Of a stretch of 39,601 nt of DNA, positions 17,285 to 25,510 are shown in pieces. This stretch comes from Schwartzia sp. (in: firmicutes) (GTDB lineage Bacteria; Bacillota; Negativicutes; Selenomonadales; Selenomonadaceae), in the NCBI GenBank assembly GCA_017458745.1, contig JAFTAB010000149.1:1-39601 (forward strand), given 5' to 3'. A program made the translations under genes and the position numbers. The notes under the pieces were generated by a model. It was given only the letters and a program-made list of their open reading frames with translations. It did not search any database and was not told the DNA's origin. Each line of letters begins with the position of its first letter. The stretch's first letter is position 1.

Positions 17285-18414
17285 TGCTGTTGAAAAAACA
17301 ATTAATTTCTTGCGCTGTCGCGCTTTCCGTTGCTTTTTCCTCCATGCCGCTTGTTGCCGCGGATGAAACGGAGGAACTGGAGCAGCAGCTTGAGGATTTG
17401 CAGCAGCAGGCTGACGCGCAGCAGCAGGAAACTGAACGCATACAAAAGGACATAGAGAATGTGTCGGAAGAGCTTCGCATTCTTGACGAGTCTGTCGGAG
17501 TGGCGCAGGCGGAGTATGATAATGTCAGCAATGCCCTCGACAGGACGGAGAATAAAATCGTAGCGAATCAAGAGCTGCTTGAGGAGACCGAGCAAAAGCT
17601 GGCTGTGAAGCAAAAAATTCTTGGCCGCAGGGTTCGTGATATATATGTGCATGGGAAGCTCAGTTATATTGATGTTTTATTTGGCGCAAAAAATTTGACA
17701 GACCTTTTCACGCGGATGGATTTATTAACGCGCGTTATCAAGCATGATTATTCTTTGGTGCAGCTGGTTCTCGACGACAAGCGTGTCGTCGAGCGGGCGA
17801 GAGCGGAACTGGAGGAGGAATACGCAGAGCGAAAAGAGCTGGTCCGTGATGCCGCTGCAAAGGAAACCAGACTGCGCTCGGCAAAGGCGGAAAAAGATGA
17901 GATGCTTGACAGGCTGGAGCAGGACATGGCTCTCTCTCAGCAGGCGTATGAGGAACTGCTCGCCGCATCCGAGGAGGTTGAGCGTTTGATTCAGCAGAGT
18001 CGCTATGTATATAGCGGTCCTGTAACGGGTTCAGGCGAAATGATATGGCCCATAGTTGGTGAAATAACGTCAGAGTTTGGTTGGCGCACGCATCCGATAT
18101 ATGGCGATGCCAGGTATCACAGCGGTCTTGACATAGCCGGGGACTATGGCGACCCGATTCATGCCGCTGCAGCCGGGCAGGTCATATATTCCGGGTGGAT
18201 AAGCGGATACGGCTATGCTGTTGTGATTGATCATGGCGGCGGAATATCTACTCTTTATGGTCACAATGAGTCTCTTGTAGTCAGCGAGGGGCAGATTGTT
18301 GCTCAGGGACAAGTAATTGCCTATTGTGGCTCGACCGGCAACTCAACAGGTCCTCATTGTCATTTTGAGGTGCGCGAGGGCGGGGAGCCTGTCAGCCCTT
18401 GGGGATATTTATAA
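17284..18414 (+). CDS. Secreted coiled-coil M23 (LytM) peptidase, EnvC/PcsB-like position
   Basis: A 376-residue exported protein. The N-terminus (LLKKQLISCAVALSVAFSS) is a signal peptide with likely cleavage after VAA near residue 26. A long Gln/Glu-rich coiled coil covers ~28-255. The C-terminal M23/LytM domain (~268-376) retains zinc and catalytic residues: HSGLD and HCHFEV, plus GSTGNSTGPH. It is therefore probably an active endopeptidase, unlike E. coli EnvC, which has lost its ligands. The coiled coil and its place after ftsEX suggest FtsEX controls it. Start ATG 17284 overlaps the ftsX TGA; AAAGGCG lies upstream. Confidence 0.92.
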   Translation: MLLKKQLISCAVALSVAFSSMPLVAADETEELEQQLEDLQQQADAQQQETERIQKDIENVSEELRILDESVGVAQAEYDNVSNALDRTENKIVANQELLEETEQKLAVKQKILGRRVRDIYVHGKLSYIDVLFGAKNLTDLFTRMDLLTRVIKHDYSLVQLVLDDKRVVERARAELEEEYAERKELVRDAAAKETRLRSAKAEKDEMLDRLEQDMALSQQAYEELLAASEEVERLIQQSRYVYSGPVTGSGEMIWPIVGEITSEFGWRTHPIYGDARYHSGLDIAGDYGDPIHAAAAGQVIYSGWISGYGYAVVIDHGGGISTLYGHNESLVVSEGQIVAQGQVIAYCGSTGNSTGPHCHFEVREGGEPVSPWGYL

Positions 18415-18428
18415 ATCAGGTGAAGTTT

Positions 18429-19607
18429 TTGGTTAAGGATTATTCGCATGGGAAAATAAAATATATTGCTTTGGGATTTTTAGGTGCCATTTTTGCCGGC
18501 GTTGCTGCAATCATTGGCGTGAGTGCTTTCTTGGGGCTCAGTTCGGCTAATATATTGCAGGCCATGCGCTTTTTTGCTACAATGCGATTCGTTGAGTCGC
18601 AGTATGTCGATACTGTCGATGAAAAGCAGCTTGTAGACGGCGCAATTAACGGCATGGTTAAGTCGCTGGGGGATCCATATTCAGTATATTTGCCCCCCGA
18701 CATGTATACACGGCTAAAAAATCAGACCAGCGGTCAATTTGGCGGTATTGGCGTCGTGATGGGGCATGATGGCAGCAATGTTCATATCATTTCCGTTATG
18801 GACGGGACGCCGGGTGAAAAGGCGGGACTGAAGGTGAATGATTCCATTGTTGCGGTGGATGGCAAATCCACATCGGAGATGGAGTTTGAGCATGTGGCTA
18901 TGTCGATACGCGGCGAGGCTGGCACGGATGTCACGCTTACTATTGGTCGAGAGGGAGAGCCAAATGCCGACTATACGATGACACGCAGCATGATACATTA
19001 CGACACGGCGGCGGGGCGCATGATTGATGATGAGAATAATAACGTTGGCTATATCCGTATATCATCATTTTCAGAAAATACCGCTGAGGAATTTAAGAAA
19101 GCCTATGACAGTCTCAAAGAAAAAGGAATGAAGGGATTGATTATCGATCTTCGCGGAAATCCCGGCGGCTTTTTAACGACATGCGTTGATATTGCGAATT
19201 TTGTTGTGCCGAAAGGGCTGGTGGTTTCTGTTGTGGAGCGTGACGGCACGCGCGAAGAGTATATGTCGAATCACGATGGTGATACTATTCCCGCTGTTGT
19301 CATTATCAATGAAGCCAGCGCGAGCGCGTCGGAAATTTTGGCGGGGGCGCTTCAGGATACCGGTGCAGCCACTGTGATTGGTACAACGTCTTACGGCAAG
19401 GGCTCGGTGCAGGTGGTAATGCCCCTGACCGATGGAGATGCGGTGAAGCTCACGATAGCGAAATATTATACGCCTAATGGACGAAGCATCGCGGGATCCG
19501 GCATAACTCCCGATATTCTTGTGGAGCTTCCCAAGGACTCGGTTCGTGATGTTCAGCTTGACGCCGCGATAAAAAATGTCAAAGATAAGATTTTTCCCGA
19601 AAACTAA
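18429..19607 (+). CDS. ctpA: S41 family C-terminal processing peptidase (CtpA-like)
   Basis: A membrane-anchored extracytoplasmic serine protease of ~392 residues. An N-terminal hydrophobic anchor (~10-35) is followed by a PDZ domain (~85-165, with GGIGVVMG and GEKAGLKVND). The S41 catalytic domain has the nucleophile Ser in NEASASASEI and the general-base Lys in SYGKGSVQ. The likely start is TTG 18429, six bases after AGGTG; GTG 18420 and TTG 18399 are alternatives. In the same order in Firmicutes such peptidases process or degrade wall hydrolases, so the preceding M23 enzyme is a plausible substrate. Confidence 0.92.
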   Translation: MVKDYSHGKIKYIALGFLGAIFAGVAAIIGVSAFLGLSSANILQAMRFFATMRFVESQYVDTVDEKQLVDGAINGMVKSLGDPYSVYLPPDMYTRLKNQTSGQFGGIGVVMGHDGSNVHIISVMDGTPGEKAGLKVNDSIVAVDGKSTSEMEFEHVAMSIRGEAGTDVTLTIGREGEPNADYTMTRSMIHYDTAAGRMIDDENNNVGYIRISSFSENTAEEFKKAYDSLKEKGMKGLIIDLRGNPGGFLTTCVDIANFVVPKGLVVSVVERDGTREEYMSNHDGDTIPAVVIINEASASASEILAGALQDTGAATVIGTTSYGKGSVQVVMPLTDGDAVKLTIAKYYTPNGRSIAGSGITPDILVELPKDSVRDVQLDAAIKNVKDKIFPEN

Positions 19608-19643: not shown

Positions 19644-19672
19644 TTGACAAAGAGACTCATTATTTGTATTAT
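19644..19672 (+). promoter_or_regulatory. Strong promoter of the HMA/P1B-ATPase operon
   Basis: TTGACA at 19644-19649, a 17-base spacer, and TATTAT at 19667-19672. The predicted transcription start is near 19679, at the edge of a Fur-like box. Confidence 0.78.
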
Positions 19673-19679
19673 TAATAAC

Positions 19680-19698
19680 GGATTTGATTATCATATTC
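19680..19698. promoter_or_regulatory. Fur-like operator
   Basis: The 19-mer GGATTTGATTATCATATTC has a perfect 10-base core (TGATTATCAT) and matches 13 of 19 positions of the classical Fur box. It starts at the predicted +1, where bound repressor would block initiation. The match is moderate; PerR or Zur boxes look alike. Confidence 0.5.
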
Positions 19699-19741
19699 AA
19701 TCTTACTTTGAGAACAAATGAAATCATGAGGAGGAGTTTTT

Positions 19742-19948
19742 ATGTTCACAAGAAGTGATTTTTGGATTGGGCTCGCTATAGGGGCGGTGGCCGGCGTTTT
19801 CGGCTACAGGTTTTTCCAGGAGAGGGAGCAGCAGATGATGGCTTTGCAGTCGTCGGCTCCGTCGGCTCAGGTGCCTCTTGCTGAGCTTGAGCGTCAGCGG
19901 GAGGAACTGGAGGATCTTATCGCCGCTCAGAAAGCTCAGGAAGCATAA
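19742..19948 (+). CDS. Small single-span membrane protein with GxxxG motif and coiled-coil tail
   Basis: A 68-residue protein, first in the operon. Residues ~8-25 are one hydrophobic helix in which glycines recur every three or four residues (GLAIGAVAGVFG), the pattern of helix packing or membrane-bending segments. A charged region follows, and the tail (~45-66) is a short Gln/Glu coiled coil. GAGGAG lies before the ATG. I do not recognise a named family. By position it resembles the small hydrophobic proteins that accompany P1B ATPases, such as the mycobacterial PacL type or small Fez proteins. That is analogy, not homology. Confidence 0.8.
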   Translation: MFTRSDFWIGLAIGAVAGVFGYRFFQEREQQMMALQSSAPSAQVPLAELERQREELEDLIAAQKAQEA

Positions 19949-20003
19949 TAATCAATGAATTGAATTGACGCTTTTGCGCTGCCGCGTGAAGCGTGAACCG
20001 CAG

Positions 20004-20066
20004 GGGCGCGTTGCCGTGTCTTCTTGCCTCATGGCAAGTGGAAACGGAATGCGCCCATATTTTTTT
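20004..20066 (+). terminator. Branched terminator-like structure between operon genes
   Basis: GGGCGC (20004-20009) pairs with GCGCCC (20051-20056). The helix continues through TT/AA and CCGT/ACGG, and an inner hairpin pairs CTTGCC with GGCAAG around TCAT. Seven T (20060-20066) follow after ATA. It could end transcription after the small gene or act as an attenuator. A downstream GGGCGCAT (20108-20115) can also pair with ATGCGCCC (20049-20056). Confidence 0.6.
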
Positions 20067-20152
20067 GAATGATGTCGCATGCAATCGTGCCGGCATATTA
20101 GCGAGGCGGGCGCATCTTCGAAGTGTCAATGTTTAATTATGAGGTAAATCGA

Positions 20153-20665
20153 ATGAAAAATTTATCACTTGGCTGGCCGCTTGCCATTGCCTCGGCCGGC
20201 ACGCTTATATCACTGGCAACCGGCGCGAAAGGGGCTCATGTTGTATTTGGGACGGCATGGGCAGGGCTCTCCGCGCTGCACGCGTATCAGTATCGCAAAA
20301 AGCTGTGCAGCGATGTGAACGGCTCGAAAATTTTTAATGAAAATGGTGTTTTGAATTTTATGGCAAAAAATTTCGATTTTATTCCGAAGTCAAAGCTCGA
20401 CCTGTTCATTCGTTCAGTGGAAATAGCTTCATATATGCCCGGGCGTGTGAGACTTTACAGCAATTCGCTGGTAGGCAATGAGACGCTGAAAGCGCAGGTG
20501 GAGGATGCGCTCCGTGGCTACGAGGAGTTGAAGCAAGTGACGGTGAGCACGACGACGGGCTCGATTCTCATAGAGTATGTGCCGGATGCGCTGCGGAAAA
20601 ATGAGGAGCTGGCTCGCGCTGAAAGATATATAGAGTGTCACGCAAAGAAAATTTTAGGGAGATGA
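20153..20665 (+). CDS. HMA_2-like membrane protein
   Basis: A 170-residue protein. Residues ~8-50 are hydrophobic and glycine/alanine-rich, probably two short helices in a hairpin. Residues ~88-145 have the beta-alpha-beta pattern of a heavy-metal-associated (HMA) fold: YMPGRVRLYSNSL, a helix, then VTVSTTTGSILIEY. There is no CxxC, so classical Cu/Zn binding through paired cysteines is not expected; this is the HMA_2 type. The ATG at 20153 follows GAGG by eight bases. The next gene encodes a second protein of the same type and the third an ATPase with a similar N-terminal domain, so the three probably act together at the membrane. Confidence 0.72.
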   Translation: MKNLSLGWPLAIASAGTLISLATGAKGAHVVFGTAWAGLSALHAYQYRKKLCSDVNGSKIFNENGVLNFMAKNFDFIPKSKLDLFIRSVEIASYMPGRVRLYSNSLVGNETLKAQVEDALRGYEELKQVTVSTTTGSILIEYVPDALRKNEELARAERYIECHAKKILGR

Positions 20666-20669
20666 TTCT

Positions 20670-21287
20670 GTGTCATACATGTCTGGGATTATGATGGGGT
20701 TCGCACTTGGGAAGGGCATACGACAATTCCTTTTTGCTAGGAGTGGCGCGATAAATGATAATATCACCGGCACTAAGATTGCCGATGCCTCGAAAAAAGT
20801 TGCAAGCGTGCCTCTTTTTTCGCTTGCCAGCAAGATAAGTGGACGACGTCGCTATTATGCGTCCGCGCTCGTGCAAAATGATGGCTTGGCTGAACTTCTC
20901 GAAGATAAATTGAGCAAGCTGCAAAATATTGATGAAGTGAAGATAAACACGGTGACGGGCAGCATACTGCTCATTTATCATGGCAATGAGGAACTGGTGG
21001 ATGCGCTTGTTGACTGGCTCTCCGAGCATATTTTCTCTCCTTCTCCATCGTCGACGGCGGTGAGTGAGGGACTGGCTTCAATCGGGATGAGCATCCGTCG
21101 CACAGTCGCGAGTTTCAACACATGCATAAAACGAGCCACGAACAGCGTGTTTGATTTATCATCTTTGCTCGCGTTATTCTTCATCGTAGGCGGGATAAAG
21201 AAATTCCTTGTCGCTCCTGTGCTCCCCAGCGGGGTTCAACTCATTTGGTGGGCGTTTTCACTCCTGCGGGGATGGAGGATGGTATGA
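20670..21287 (+). CDS. Second HMA_2-like membrane protein
   Basis: A 205-residue relative of the preceding product. A hydrophobic glycine-rich N-terminus (~4-24) comes first. The HMA-like domain at ~56-106 has GRRRYYASALVQN, a helix, then VKINTVTGSILLIYH; the TVTGSILL strand matches TTTGSILI of the upstream protein. A C-terminal hydrophobic region (~166-202) probably spans the membrane once or twice. No CxxC is present. The start is GTG 20670, seven bases after AGGGAGA; an ATG at 20679 is less well placed. Its stop overlaps the ATPase start (ATGA). Confidence 0.72.
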   Translation: MSYMSGIMMGFALGKGIRQFLFARSGAINDNITGTKIADASKKVASVPLFSLASKISGRRRYYASALVQNDGLAELLEDKLSKLQNIDEVKINTVTGSILLIYHGNEELVDALVDWLSEHIFSPSPSSTAVSEGLASIGMSIRRTVASFNTCIKRATNSVFDLSSLLALFFIVGGIKKFLVAPVLPSGVQLIWWAFSLLRGWRMV

Positions 21288-23398
21288 GCGGCATGACAAA
21301 AAATGTGATATATCGCTCCGTTATTGTGACGCTTAAAAGGGATTTGCCCCATGAAAAGCGCATAATGGCAGGAGTCAGGTTGCGCTCATTTCCCGGGGTC
21401 GTCTCCGTGGCTTTTGAAAATAAGAAGCTGACGGTGCGGTATCGCGGCTCTCGTCTCTCGATTCCCGCGACGAGGTTTTTAAGAGGCTTGATGGATGAGG
21501 AAGCGGAGCATGAATCTGAGCCAAAGATGGCGGACTATCGCCGTGAGGCAATCATTTCGCTGGTGAGTTTTGCCGCAATGAAATTCTTGGAAAAAAGTGC
21601 GCCTGCAACTTTTGAAGGAATAAAATTTCTGCGCAGTCTTTTGGTGCTCGGGATTGCCAGAGGCTTTATAAAAAACGGCGTGATGGGAATGATGCGTGAC
21701 CACCGCCCGAATGCCGATACGCTCACGGCGACAGCGGTTGCCGCGTCGGTGCTGTCGGGGAGACCTGAGTCCAGTCTGACGCTGTTGACGCTCTCAAATG
21801 TTGCCGAGATGCTGACAAGCTACGCGGCAGAACGCGCGAGAAAGCAGATATCGGGGCTGCTCAATCTCAACCAGCGATATGTGTGGCTTGTAGAGGGCGG
21901 AGTCGAGCGAAAGGTGCTCGTCGAGCAGGTGAAGGCAGGCGACCATATTGCCGCCCACATGGGCGAAAAAATCTGCGTTGACGGGCGTGTGCTTCATGGC
22001 ACAGCGGCGGTCAATCAGTCCTCCATCACAGGAGAGTCAAATCCAGCCATGAAAAAGCGCGATTCACTCGTTTATGCGGGCAGCGTTGTCGAGGCAGGCG
22101 AGGTGACAATTCTCGTTGAGAAGGTGGGAAAAGATACATCTCTCGCGCATATAGTTCATCTTGTTGAGGAGGCGCAGGCGCAGAGAGCACCGATACAGAA
22201 CTTTGCCGACCAGATGGCAAATCTTTTAGTGCCAATCTCTTTCCTTGGAGCGGCAATCGTCTACGGCGCGACGCGTGACTGGCAGCGTGTCCTGAATTTG
22301 CTGTTTATTGATTTCTCATGCGGGCTGAAGCTCTCGACCGCGACGGCCATATCCGCCTCGATTGCCGCGGCGGCGAAGCGTGGGATTTTGGTTAAAGGCG
22401 GCAACTATATTGAGGCACTCGCCGAGGCTGACACGCTCGTGCTGGACAAGACCGGCACGCTGACGGTTGGCATTCCGCAGATTTCTTATGTCGCGACTGC
22501 GAATGGCGTCGATGAGAAAGAGACTATCCTGCTTGCGGCATCTGCTGAGATGCATTCGGTTCATCCTCTTGCCGTGGCAATTCAGAAATACGTCAAGGGG
22601 CAGGGCTGGGAAGTGCCGCAGCATAAATCCTCAAAGACGATCGTCGCGCGCGGCATGAAGGCGACAGTTCCGGCATTTGAAGATTACAAGGGCGGAAATA
22701 TTCTTGTCGGCAGCAAAAAATTTATGGAGGAGTCAGGCGTTGTCGGACTCGATACCGTGACGATTGAAAAATCCGCGCCGAGCTGTATCTACGTTGCCCG
22801 CAATAAAAAACTCCTCGGAATCATCGGCATAAAAGACCCAATCCGCCCGAAGATGAAAAAGACGCTCAATCAGATGCGCCGTTATGGCATTGATGAGATA
22901 GTGATGCTCACCGGCGACTCAAAGAATGTCGCCAATGACGTGGCGCGAGAAATGGACATTGACTCATACTATGCGGAGGTGCTGCCGGAGGACAAGGCAA
23001 AATATGTCATGAGGCTAAAGGAGCACGGTTGCATAATGATGGTTGGCGATGGGATAAACGATGCGCCGGCACTCGCGTTCGCGAATGTAGGCGTGTCGCT
23101 TGGCAGCAGGCAGACAGATATTGCCGCGGAGTCGTCAGCGGTAACGATACGCTCCGAGGATCCGTCGGGGCTGATGACCGCGCTGAGGCTCGGTCGCCGC
23201 ACGATGCAGCTCATCAGGCAGAATTTCCTCGCGACAATCACGGTGAATTCCGCCGCGATGCTGCTGGGCGCGCTCGGCAGAATAAACCCTCTTTGGGCTG
23301 CGATAATCCATAACACCTCTACGCTCGCCGTCGTGCTGAATAGCGCGAGAGTCCTGAGCTTTGACTCGGACACCCATCTTTTGCCATCGGGAGAGTAG
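21284..23398 (+). CDS. P1B-type metal ATPase with SCG transport motif (FezB-like candidate)
   Basis: A 704-residue transporter. All ATPase machinery is intact: TGES at 249-252, phosphorylated Asp388 in DKTGTLT, the P1B-specific His427-Pro428, MLTGDS, and GDGINDAPA. The last membrane region ends with the P1B-like HNTSTLAVVLNS. The transport motif, normally CPC, SPC or TPC, is FSCGLKLSTA: Cys346 is kept but the proline is replaced by Gly. An N-terminal HMA_2-like domain (~8-55) lacks CxxC. As I recall the P1B scheme, a Cys motif without proline fits the P1B-6 type that includes FezB of ferrosomes; iron is then the likely cargo. Start ATG 21284 follows GGAGG and overlaps the upstream stop by four bases. 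Confidence 0.88.
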   Translation: MSGMTKNVIYRSVIVTLKRDLPHEKRIMAGVRLRSFPGVVSVAFENKKLTVRYRGSRLSIPATRFLRGLMDEEAEHESEPKMADYRREAIISLVSFAAMKFLEKSAPATFEGIKFLRSLLVLGIARGFIKNGVMGMMRDHRPNADTLTATAVAASVLSGRPESSLTLLTLSNVAEMLTSYAAERARKQISGLLNLNQRYVWLVEGGVERKVLVEQVKAGDHIAAHMGEKICVDGRVLHGTAAVNQSSITGESNPAMKKRDSLVYAGSVVEAGEVTILVEKVGKDTSLAHIVHLVEEAQAQRAPIQNFADQMANLLVPISFLGAAIVYGATRDWQRVLNLLFIDFSCGLKLSTATAISASIAAAAKRGILVKGGNYIEALAEADTLVLDKTGTLTVGIPQISYVATANGVDEKETILLAASAEMHSVHPLAVAIQKYVKGQGWEVPQHKSSKTIVARGMKATVPAFEDYKGGNILVGSKKFMEESGVVGLDTVTIEKSAPSCIYVARNKKLLGIIGIKDPIRPKMKKTLNQMRRYGIDEIVMLTGDSKNVANDVAREMDIDSYYAEVLPEDKAKYVMRLKEHGCIMMVGDGINDAPALAFANVGVSLGSRQTDIAAESSAVTIRSEDPSGLMTALRLGRRTMQLIRQNFLATITVNSAAMLLGALGRINPLWAAIIHNTSTLAVVLNSARVLSFDSDTHLLPSGE

Positions 23399-23406
23399 CG
23401 AAAAAG

Positions 23407-23446
23407 AAAAGGCTTGACTCCAAATTAAATGGAATCAAGCCTTTTT
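23407..23446. terminator. Bidirectional terminator after the ATPase
   Basis: AAAAGGCTTGA pairs with TCAAGCCTTTT, then after one mismatch TCC pairs with GGA, around a 9-base AT loop. Runs of A on the left and T on the right let it work in both directions, ending the ATPase operon and the opposing ygbA transcript. Confidence 0.82.
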
Positions 23447-23625
23447 ATTTTTTTATGCAAGAACTGTTAGCAAATAAATTTTAGATTTGAATAGTATAAA
23501 TCTTCAATATTCGTCGTTGTCGTCAGTCGCCATAGCAACACTATGTCTTTTTCTTCCGCTTAGCCTGCCTATGAAGATTTTATGTGTGTCGTATCGTGAA
23601 ATTTATTTATTGCGGTTCCTTGCTG

Positions 23626-24126
23626 TCATTTCTTTTTTTTGCCTTGAATTTTTCTCGCCTCGCGTTGCCTTATTTTTGCTGCCTTGGCTTTGCGCTTGCT
23701 CTCTTCCTTTTCGGCGATGTCGTCATTTTGCTTTTGCTTTGCATAGTCAACGCCCCATTTAGTGAGCTTGTGCTTCACGGCCGTGACAGGGTGCTTCATC
23801 AGCATTCTTTTTCCGGAAGCATCCATAATATCAAGAAATTTTTTGTTGTTCGCGTCGCCGAAGCACATATTGTCGCAGCGGTCGCATATCGGCTTCGTTA
23901 TCCCATAGCGGCAGCGGCTCATCTTTTTGAATATGGTCGCCAGGAGAGCCGTGCATTTTGGGCAGAGCTTTTCGCCCTTTGTGTCATGATGGCTGTTGCA
24001 ATATACGGCGAATGATTTCTTGATAGTGTCCTTTTCCTTTGGGACATTATTTTTGTACTCGGCCGGTTTGTCAGTTTCCTCTTTTTTGCGAAATCTTTTT
24101 GGAATCAAATTTGTGAAAAAGCCCAT
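23626..24126 (-). CDS. ygbA: YgbA-family (nitrous oxide-stimulated promoter) cysteine-rich protein
   Basis: A 166-residue soluble protein. The centre (~40-125) follows the YgbA/PF11756 pattern: a helix ending YCNSHH, then LCPKC, SRCRYG, KPICDRCDNMCF, and the closing KRMLMKHPVTAVKHK. These cysteines suggest a metal or Fe-S site. E. coli ygbA is induced by nitric oxide and has been linked to survival of nitrosative stress; the molecular role is unclear. The C-terminal ~35 residues are extremely Lys/Arg-rich, which is unusual and could bind RNA. The ATG at 24126 has AAAGGTGG six bases upstream. It converges on the ATPase operon and diverges from the decarboxylase. Confidence 0.83.
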   Translation of the reverse strand: MGFFTNLIPKRFRKKEETDKPAEYKNNVPKEKDTIKKSFAVYCNSHHDTKGEKLCPKCTALLATIFKKMSRCRYGITKPICDRCDNMCFGDANNKKFLDIMDASGKRMLMKHPVTAVKHKLTKWGVDYAKQKQNDDIAEKEESKRKAKAAKIRQREARKIQGKKKK

Positions 24127-24210
24127 CGTAATCCACCTTTGCAAATAATAACTAGCCTATTTATTGTAAATGCAACACGCAATAAAATCAAGCATAAAAA
24201 TTTTTTTGAA

Positions 24211-24246
24211 ATTGCAAGGGAAATTGCAAGAAAAGTCTTGCGTAAT
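24211..24246. promoter_or_regulatory. Repeated TTGCAA-type motif upstream of the decarboxylase
   Basis: ATTGCAAG occurs at 24211 and 24223, one helical turn apart, and CTTGCGTAAT follows in inverted orientation at 24237-24246, across the -35 of the decarboxylase promoter. Arranged like an operator; the regulator is unknown. Confidence 0.35.
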
Positions 24247-24266
24247 TGGATATATGGGGTTACAAT
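24238..24266 (+). promoter_or_regulatory. Promoter of the lysine/ornithine decarboxylase
   Basis: TTGCGT at 24238-24243, 17-base spacer, TACAAT at 24261-24266. The leader of about 45 bases contains a small hairpin, GGGAAC (24283-24288) with GTTCCC (24294-24299), just before the gene. Confidence 0.55.
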
Positions 24267-24319
24267 GTAGCCGAAATTTGGAGGGAACATATCGTTCCCC
24301 GATGGAATGGGAGAGTGTT

Positions 24320-25510
24320 ATGGAGAGCTTTCGCCTCACACAAAAAGAAATGATTCGTTTAGCGGAAAAGTACCCGACGCCGTTCGTGGTCATTTCGCTC
24401 ACGCAGATTGAGAGGAACTACGCGATTCTGAAGGAGCATTTGCCACGCGTGAATGTATATTACGCAATGAAGGCGAATCCTGCGCCTCGCATCGTGAAGA
24501 CACTCTATCGACTGGGGGCATCGTTTGACACGGCGTCCGCCGGGGAGATTGAGTTCCTGTCGCGCTTGGGAATTGAGGGGGCGCGCGTGATTTATGCAAA
24601 CCCCGTGAAGACGCCCAGAAGCATCGCCATAGCGAACACGCTTGGTGTCAGGAAATACACTTATGACGATATGAGCGAGATTGAAAAACTGGCTCGTCTC
24701 GCGCCCGGCGCGGATGTGATGGTGCGCATCAGAGTGAAAAACCAAAAGGCGCTCGTAGATCTCAATGCGAAATTCGGTGCGCCGCCCGAGGAGGCAATAG
24801 AGCTTCTGAAAGCGGCGAAGAAGGCGGGGCTCAATCCCGCAGGAATCTGTTTCCATGTGGGCAGCCAATCGACGGCTGCCGAGGCGTATGAGGAGGCACT
24901 GCTCCTCACTCGAAAGCTGTTCAATGACGCTGAAAAATGTGGGATGCATCTTACGATGCTCGATATTGGAGGGGGATTCCCTATCCCGAAGGTGGGCTCT
25001 CGTGATGCTGATGTTGCAGAAATGATGGATTCTATAGAGCATCAGATTGAGAGGCTGTTCCCCGACACAGAGATTTGGTGTGAGCCCGGCAGATTCATCT
25101 GCGGCACGGCGGTCAATCTAGTGACGAGCGTCATTGGCACCAAGACGCGTAACGGCAAAAAATGGTACTGGCTTGATGAGGGGCTATATGGGACTTTCTC
25201 TGGGGCAATCTATGACCATTGGACGTTTGACTTTGAGTCGTTCAAGCCGGGGATAAAAGAGCCGGTCACCTTCCTCGGACCCTCGTGCGACTCAATTGAT
25301 TTTGTCAGGTACGATGTGATGATGCCAAATCTGGAGATGGGTGATCTTGTGCTTGTGCCGGATTGCGGTTCATACACGACGGCGAGTGCCACGACATTCA
25401 ACGGCTTCCCGCTTGCCACGCAGATTTATTTCGAGGACGAGGAGGTCGCCGCGGAACGCAGGGCGAGAGAAAACATCTCTGAAATTTTTGAAGCGGCGCG
25501 GACTGCTTGA
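24320..25510 (+). CDS. ldc: Lysine/ornithine decarboxylase, fold type III (Selenomonas type)
   Basis: A 396-residue PLP enzyme of the alanine-racemase fold that decarboxylates lysine to cadaverine and/or ornithine to putrescine. The PLP lysine is K51 in YYAMKANP. Further family motifs are CFHVGSQS, the phosphate-binding DIGGGFP, EPGRFICGTAVNLV, GPSCDSID with the catalytic Cys, and GSYTTASAT. It resembles the dual-specificity S. ruminantium enzyme (393 residues as I recall), whose cadaverine is attached covalently to peptidoglycan to hold the outer membrane. Start ATG 24320 has GGGAG six bases upstream and places K51 at the same residue number. It is monocistronic, with its own promoter and terminator. 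Confidence 0.93.
   Translation: MESFRLTQKEMIRLAEKYPTPFVVISLTQIERNYAILKEHLPRVNVYYAMKANPAPRIVKTLYRLGASFDTASAGEIEFLSRLGIEGARVIYANPVKTPRSIAIANTLGVRKYTYDDMSEIEKLARLAPGADVMVRIRVKNQKALVDLNAKFGAPPEEAIELLKAAKKAGLNPAGICFHVGSQSTAAEAYEEALLLTRKLFNDAEKCGMHLTMLDIGGGFPIPKVGSRDADVAEMMDSIEHQIERLFPDTEIWCEPGRFICGTAVNLVTSVIGTKTRNGKKWYWLDEGLYGTFSGAIYDHWTFDFESFKPGIKEPVTFLGPSCDSIDFVRYDVMMPNLEMGDLVLVPDCGSYTTASATTFNGFPLATQIYFEDEEVAAERRARENISEIFEAARTA

Follow-up and report, generated by a model that had tools for sequence, protein, structure and literature searches.

To our knowledge, few organisms are known to have ferrosomes, the membrane-bound, iron- and phosphate-rich compartments of Fez systems, and the ATPase of these systems, FezB, is said by Pi et al. 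and Grant et al. to be a P1B6 ATPase. We describe here an operon of related make-up in Schwartzia sp., a Selenomonas-like bacterium, comprising four co-oriented genes on the plus strand at positions 19742-23398 of contig JAFTAB010000149.1 (assembly GCA_017458745.1, a 2.05-Mb draft genome that is 83% complete); the whole stretch of this contig that was analysed, 39,601 nucleotides long, is called the window. We put at about 60% the probability that this operon works like a Fez system, with a ferrosome-like compartment as the best explanation of its gene content. The predicted genes are:

19742-19948, plus strand: gene 1, a FezA-like small membrane protein of 68 residues with GLAIG and GAVAG, an N-terminal FWIG..GxxxG helix and a C-terminal RQ(R/K)EELEDLIA stretch
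20153-20665, plus strand: gene 2, HMA_2 protein A, FezC-like, 170 residues, ATG start, with an N-terminal two-His membrane hairpin and a C-terminal HMA_2 domain
20670-21287, plus strand: gene 3, HMA_2 membrane protein B, 205 residues, GTG start, with HMA_2 followed by a C-terminal membrane region and an invariant GRRRY
21284-23398, plus strand: gene 4, a P1B-type ATPase of 704 residues (TIGR01525, 512 bits), placed by a tree and topology tests

Genes 2 and 3 are separated by 4 nt, and the ATG of gene 4 at 21284 sits inside the gene 3 stop codon (an ATGA overlap of 4 nt), so that the tight spacing claimed for all four genes in an earlier note on this DNA holds for genes 2 to 4, but gene 1 is set off by 204 nt; a GTG at 20123 is an alternative start for gene 2. 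The other gene descriptions of that note stand. The 68-residue protein carries its GxxxG motifs, and the two HMA_2-like proteins score 49 bits (gene 2) and 96 bits over the full profile (gene 3) against a Pfam cut-off of 30, with CxxC present in none of the four operon products on a sequence check. The ATPase has Cys and no Pro in its transport motif, DFSCGLKLST.

Among the closest described systems, the fezAB genes of Clostridioides difficile correspond to CD630_05910-05920 (PMC11651100) and are Fur- and iron-regulated (PMC12574912). The FezC of Desulfovibrio magneticus is DUF4405-like (PMC10979944), and that of Desulfurispirillum indicum binds heme b, in a model in which the heme is bound via homodimerisation (PMC10979944, PMC11334425). 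We take two of the loci fetched for comparison (which carry L numbers) as references, L254 as C. difficile and L320 as D. magneticus RS-1; both species names are deduced, the loci having been reached by searches of Peptostreptococcaceae and Desulfovibrionaceae (Mailhella family). The Peptostreptococcaceae genome group that is probably C. difficile encodes near-identical 707-residue P1B6 ATPases, located at 711.6 kb in one complete genome that gave 12 matches to a 16S primer, and the gene upstream of the ATPase in L254 is identified as fezA because its 131-residue product matches DUF6110 (8e-23 over the first 85 residues). Like this locus, the window operon encodes a small GxxxG membrane protein and, downstream of it, a P1B6 ATPase, but in C. 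difficile FezA belongs clearly to DUF6110, FezB carries Ser-Cys-Ala (SCA) in the metal-site helix, and no HMA_2 or hairpin genes adjoin the pair in L254. In L320, three consecutive genes encode a DUF6110-like small protein, an ATPase with DFSCAIKLS, and a protein with HMA_2 and a two-His hairpin. All three products of this probable fezABC have counterparts in the window operon, namely the FezA-like, FezB-type (DFSC, HN) and FezC parts within one operon, and the earlier view that the operon is built from Fez-type parts is to this extent supported by homology. The window differs from D. magneticus in that its FezC-like protein is hairpin-first and apparently permuted and is encoded before the ATPase instead of after it, in that the metal-site helix of the ATPase has Ser-Cys-Gly (SCG) and the protein stands apart from the FezB clade, and in its extra HMA_2 membrane protein.

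Other systems are similar in part. A six-gene proteobacterial fez-type cluster on Azospirillum brasilense p3 (L128), which has an SCA ATPase with His-Asn (HN) and stands beside an iron ABC transporter, shares HMA_2 with a two-His hairpin and small membrane proteins with the window, but differs in gene content and order, in the unpermuted order of its FezC-like protein, and in the SCA motif. The clusters of Priestia (L092), Fusobacterium (L093) and Peptostreptococcaceae (L257-L261) share the ATPase clade, HMA_2 protein B and the small-protein family, but have an extra HMA_2 gene after the ATPase, the small gene at the 3' end and a gene 2 product lacking the His hairpin. PacL1-CtpC, the zinc efflux platform of Mycobacterium tuberculosis (PMC9374683), likewise combines a small membrane protein with a charged tail and a P1B6-like ATPase with HN, but has a CPC site, a DUF1490 small protein with a DLHDHDH tail, and no FezC-like protein.

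Placement of the ATPase

All P-type catalytic motifs are intact in the gene 4 product, including DKTGT at 22445. The SCG of its metal-site helix is encoded at 22316-22324; CPC is absent from this helix, and the protein has no Cys-rich N-terminus. Its N-terminal HMA-like region lacks the PGR motif found in other members. Transmembrane helix 6 contains HN (AAIIHN, 23309-23314), which is conserved in all relatives checked and is a mark of P1B6 ATPases, whose typical partners are DUF6110 small proteins (PMC9374683). The P1B ATPases of our sample split cleanly by motif, with D-[FY]-x-C-G and HN in the clade of the window (SC-G), D-[FY]-[SA]-C-[AP] and HN in a second clade (SC-A, the FezB clade), and CPC and HN in the mycobacterial-type ATPases; the remaining P1B ATPases have no HN, save for a few CPC-type sequences with VHN.

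The earlier note had called for a tree of the ATPase, and an IQ-TREE phylogeny of 54 sequences recovers the SC-G clade with full support (100/100) as sister, on a branch with support of 91/92, to the SC-A clade (100/100), while a quick tree of 83 sequences gives the branch uniting the two a support of 97. SC-G members come from Selenomonas-like genomes, Priestia, Fusobacterium and Peptostreptococcaceae, and the SC-A clade includes the probable FezB proteins of C. difficile and D. magneticus. Placement in a Cu or Zn clade, which had been named as an outcome that would speak against a Fez-type system, is not what the analyses return: the P1B-1 (Cu) sequences form a separate clade in the 54-sequence tree, and a forced grouping of SC-G with P1B-2 is rejected by the approximately unbiased (AU) test (p 6e-6), so that the window ATPase stands outside the Cu and Zn/Cd clades in a clade of its own beside FezB.

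We also note a FezB-clade ATPase with SCA and HN at 617-2755 of L139, in a Methanobrevibacter genome from goat ileum. It is close to that of the bacterium Anaerotignum, and has probably either been transferred to an archaeon or been binned in error. Open frames of about 1400-1600 residues in L053, L098, L102 and L124, which belong to the CPC-type HN group or to HMA_2-bearing neighbours, apparently encode double-ATPase or fused proteins.

The FezA-like and FezC-like proteins

The 68-residue family matches FezA/DUF6110 in a profile comparison (P 5e-6, probability 86%), and a hidden Markov model (HMM) of the small proteins finds the probable D. magneticus FezA (E 2.6e-4). In both, a Gly-rich helix at the N-terminus comes together with a (L/V)ED(I/L)xAE-type stretch at the C-terminus. 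The window's own 68-residue protein has no match to Pfam DUF6110 and none to DUF1490, and it contains no His or Cys and no metal-binding tail. These comparisons are suggestive of a distant FezA-like protein. Assignment of the small protein as ZapG was considered and rejected at a value of 0.004, far below the cut-off. Iterated HMM searches found the small-protein family in all 42 of the 42 SC-G clusters, and its gene lies at the 3' end of the cluster in Priestia, Fusobacterium and Peptostreptococcaceae. Because it changes position and yet stays within the cluster, we regard it as a working part of the system.

The membrane hairpin of gene 2 (KGAHVVFG......LHAYQYRKK) has H29 (20237), G33 and H43 (20279) invariant in 19 sequences, a set that includes proteobacterial fez-type cluster proteins in which the hairpin is C-terminal. 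When a hairpin HMM was run against all loci, comprising 17,842 open frames, matches were confined to fez-type clusters, among them an independent Desulfovibrionaceae protein (1.5e-6). None of the CPC-type loci searched yielded the hairpin protein, which turned up solely in SC-A and SC-G clusters. The earlier note had seen in the HMA-type part a counterpart of the Fez proteins, and this is upheld for gene 2, since its window-type hairpin and HMA_2 models both match the probable D. magneticus FezC (E 2e-7 and 1.8e-9). Aligned with DUF4405, the hairpin scores 22 with its His residues aligned, compared with at most 13 for 40 column-shuffled versions and about 9 for other membrane segments. The probable D. 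magneticus FezC and a gene 2 homologue each match DUF4405 in the same weak manner, and in both the match falls on one and the same region of the family. On these sequence comparisons gene 2 is best read as a permuted FezC, with HMA_2 and the two-His hairpin in reverse order.

The HMA_2 domains of genes 2 and 3 have the HMA ferredoxin fold and conserved (P)GR.R motifs without CxxC, and the gene 3 protein is conserved in SC-G clusters, including those of Priestia and Fusobacterium. The predicted structure of gene 2 has a mean predicted local distance difference test score (pLDDT) of 80 and its HMA part resembles domains of ATP7B and CopZ with Z scores of about 5, tied with unrelated folds and hence not decisive; that of gene 3 has a pLDDT of 69. 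In L045, L046, L060, L062 and L110 gene 2 is short and the hairpin is encoded in the gene after the ATPase, with or without an HMA_2 domain of its own, and in these loci the hairpin and HMA_2 have been reshuffled as modules.

Conservation, iron linkage and alternative explanations

An orthologue of the ATPase is present in 28 of 36 sampled genomes of the same family (about 60-86% identity) and in other families of the same class (55-66%). The four-gene set recurs among 30 fetched relative loci while the flanking genes differ, which argues that the locus is more than a chance assembly. SC-G clusters were also found in Fusobacterium vincentii (L093), Peptostreptococcaceae (L257-L261) and Priestia megaterium, where the cluster (L092) has three HMA_2 genes, lies on plasmid pBM400 and adjoins an IS256-type transposase; as it is plasmid-borne beside a transposase, the system is able to move between strains.

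The link to iron comes from neighbouring genes and from promoters. A feoB gene lies within about 5 kb, in the fetched flanks, in 10 of 39 SC-G clusters and in 0 of 65 other P1B loci (p 2.4e-5), a comparison that is weakened by controls which are of similar length but from other taxa, and in which FeoB was verified with Pfam in one locus. The feoB genes occupy varying positions, upstream and downstream and on both strands; in L257 (Peptostreptococcaceae) feoA-feoA-feoB directly precede the cluster. Fur-like 15-mers beat shuffled sequences (p<=0.05) in 12 of 31 promoters of relatives, and this 31-promoter set is enriched in such boxes relative to 63 other promoters of the same loci (p 1.8e-4); TTGACA hexamers, which are like half a Fur box, may contribute to the signal. 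The source genome has one FUR-family gene. A partial or small Fur-family gene also stands at 4479-4745 of L138 (Clostridiales bacterium CHKCI001), directly before a fezAB-type pair. The predicted control elements of the window operon are:

19644-19672, plus strand: a sigma-70-type promoter, TTGACA, 17 nt, TATTAT, matching 11 of 12 consensus positions and predicted by consensus match alone
19685-19699, no strand assigned: a Fur-like box, TGATTATCATATTCA, matching 11 of 14 positions and overlapping the predicted start point

Of the promoter with a Fur-like box at its start point that the earlier note had proposed, the promoter match and the overlap stand, but the box on its own is within chance, since 12.5% of dinucleotide shuffles reach 11/14 (p 0.125). 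This is one of several points that weigh against a Fez-type role. The window's own neighbours are not iron genes. Its ATPase is not inside the FezB clade and has SCG, where every FezB-clade sequence has SCA except that of Rhodobacter (C-P), and because of this we class the locus as a sister subtype and not as fez proper. BLAST identity is 32-36% to FezB and 34-38% to the CPC-type P1B6-like ATPases, and FezB membership on raw identity was rejected as identity to FezB is no higher than to the CPC-type. A forced grouping of SC-G with the CPC-type HN ATPases (PacL/CtpC-type, 'P1B6-like') passes the AU test (p 0.137). In many relatives gene 2 has no His hairpin, and a downstream gene supplies it in only some of them. 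Within the window's own subgroup the FezA-like match is weak, with selenomonad members alone giving a DUF6110 probability of 57% (P 1e-4) compared with 94% for the non-selenomonad members, and PacL-type zinc exporters likewise carry such small proteins.

Several of these points would suit a platform for ferrous iron efflux without an organelle, in which the small protein would gather the ATPase into clusters in the cytoplasmic membrane, in the manner of PacL1 and CtpC in mycobacteria, excess ferrous iron would be exported so as to protect cells with strong Feo uptake, and the two-His protein would oxidise or reduce iron at the membrane. PMC9374683 describes foci of PacL1-CtpC for metal efflux and gives DUF6110 proteins as companions of P1B6 ATPases, the 68-residue protein resembles DUF6110 and PacL-type proteins, the feoB linkage is as suited to detoxification as to storage, and the grouping beside CPC-type ATPases is among the topologies that survive. 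We nevertheless think such a platform rather unlikely, if to be taken seriously, as the FezC-like hairpin protein is confined, among the loci searched, to SC-A and SC-G clusters, the ATPase has no CPC and the small protein neither a DUF1490 match nor a metal-binding tail, and the FezB homologues tested to date form organelles. That the SC-G clusters are instead a separate, independently assembled class of metal compartment, with a permuted heme-binding FezC and an SCG site forming a redox-gated store, perhaps for another cargo or iron form and with membrane protein dosage set through a conserved leaky terminator, is a more doubtful proposition.

That the operon instead encodes a pump for some other divalent metal (Zn, Mn, Co or Ni), assembled with borrowed Fez-type parts, is very improbable. 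The top annotation models for the ATPase are the generic heavy-metal and cadmium ones (TIGR01525, TIGR01512), but the rejection of a P1B-2 placement, the lack of CPC, of a Cys-rich N-terminus and of CxxC in the four products, the feo linkage and the enrichment of Fur-like boxes all speak against such a pump. Decayed or generic metal-transport genes that adjoin by chance could account for the lost PGR motif in the N-terminal HMA-like region of the ATPase, but this reading is scarcely credible and is in practice refuted by the conservation of the four-gene set, with changing flanks, in most genomes of the family; the intact catalytic motifs and the translational coupling of genes 3 and 4 also contradict it. 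We therefore favour a Fez-type system, with support that reaches homology and an iron link, for what is a putative organelle. In gene content and predicted domains the locus is a distinct fez-type subtype, marked by the SCG site, by a FezC-like protein with its two parts permuted and by an additional HMA_2 membrane protein.

Proposed function, transcript structure and neighbouring genes

Two further elements bear on the transcript:

20004-20066, plus strand: a terminator-like hairpin (20004-20056) and T7 (20060-20066) between genes 1 and 2
23407-23456, plus strand: the predicted operon terminator, a palindromic hairpin (inverted repeat of 16 pairs) followed by a T run on the plus strand

The 204-nt gap between genes 1 and 2 folds at -52 kcal/mol (z -4.4), and 26 of 30 relatives have a terminator-like hairpin after gene 1, mostly beyond all shuffles. 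Many gaps leave some tens of bases before gene 2, which is too little room for a second promoter ahead of that gene. The hairpin may be a leaky terminator, which would increase the yield of the small protein, or else an mRNA end with a protective effect on its message. In the same gap of L033-L062 the conserved hairpin often has AGACTGCC...GGCAGTCT arms and a T run. A dispersed repeat was considered and rejected, as the gap hairpin occurs as a single copy in the genome.

In the mechanism that we propose, iron scarcity would lift a presumed Fur repression and the operon would be transcribed, with leaky termination 3' of gene 1 giving an excess of the FezA-like protein over the three downstream products. 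The FezA-like protein would scaffold or shape a membrane patch or vesicle, the putative compartment, and recruit the FezB-like ATPase, which would move ferrous iron, as its likely substrate, through the DFSC-G/HN site in the presumed direction of the compartment interior. The gene 2 product may hold heme b between dimerised two-His hairpins, and electron transfer by it could oxidise iron for storage or reduce it for release. The HMA_2 domains of genes 2 and 3 would act as docking or regulatory modules and not as Cu/Zn chaperones.

Our literature search found no paper linking ferrosomes with Selenomonas. A homologue set of all three D. magneticus Fez proteins is now placed in Selenomonas-like bacteria, Fusobacterium, Priestia plasmids and Peptostreptococcaceae, and it is probable that Selenomonas-type bacteria, together with a few distant groups, have a related means of storing or pumping ferrous iron. 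Should this hold, compartments for iron would be common among the anaerobes that live in the mouth, gut and rumen. Two questions become testable: whether a heme-binding FezC, with its two His invariant and its halves swapped in order, belongs to the core of the machine, and whether there is a coupling between Feo uptake and iron storage.

The operon is flanked by an S41 peptidase gene (18399-19607) upstream and a decarboxylase gene (24170-25510) downstream. Just 3' of the operon, at 23626-24144 on the minus strand, lies a gene for a YgbA_NO family protein (PF11756, 82 bits), a family name that refers to nitric/nitrous-oxide-linked regulation. A Selenomonas-like host is supported by the decarboxylase, a pyridoxal phosphate enzyme whose best PDB match is the lysine/ornithine decarboxylase 5gjm (E 5e-154), which we take to be the Selenomonas ruminantium enzyme.

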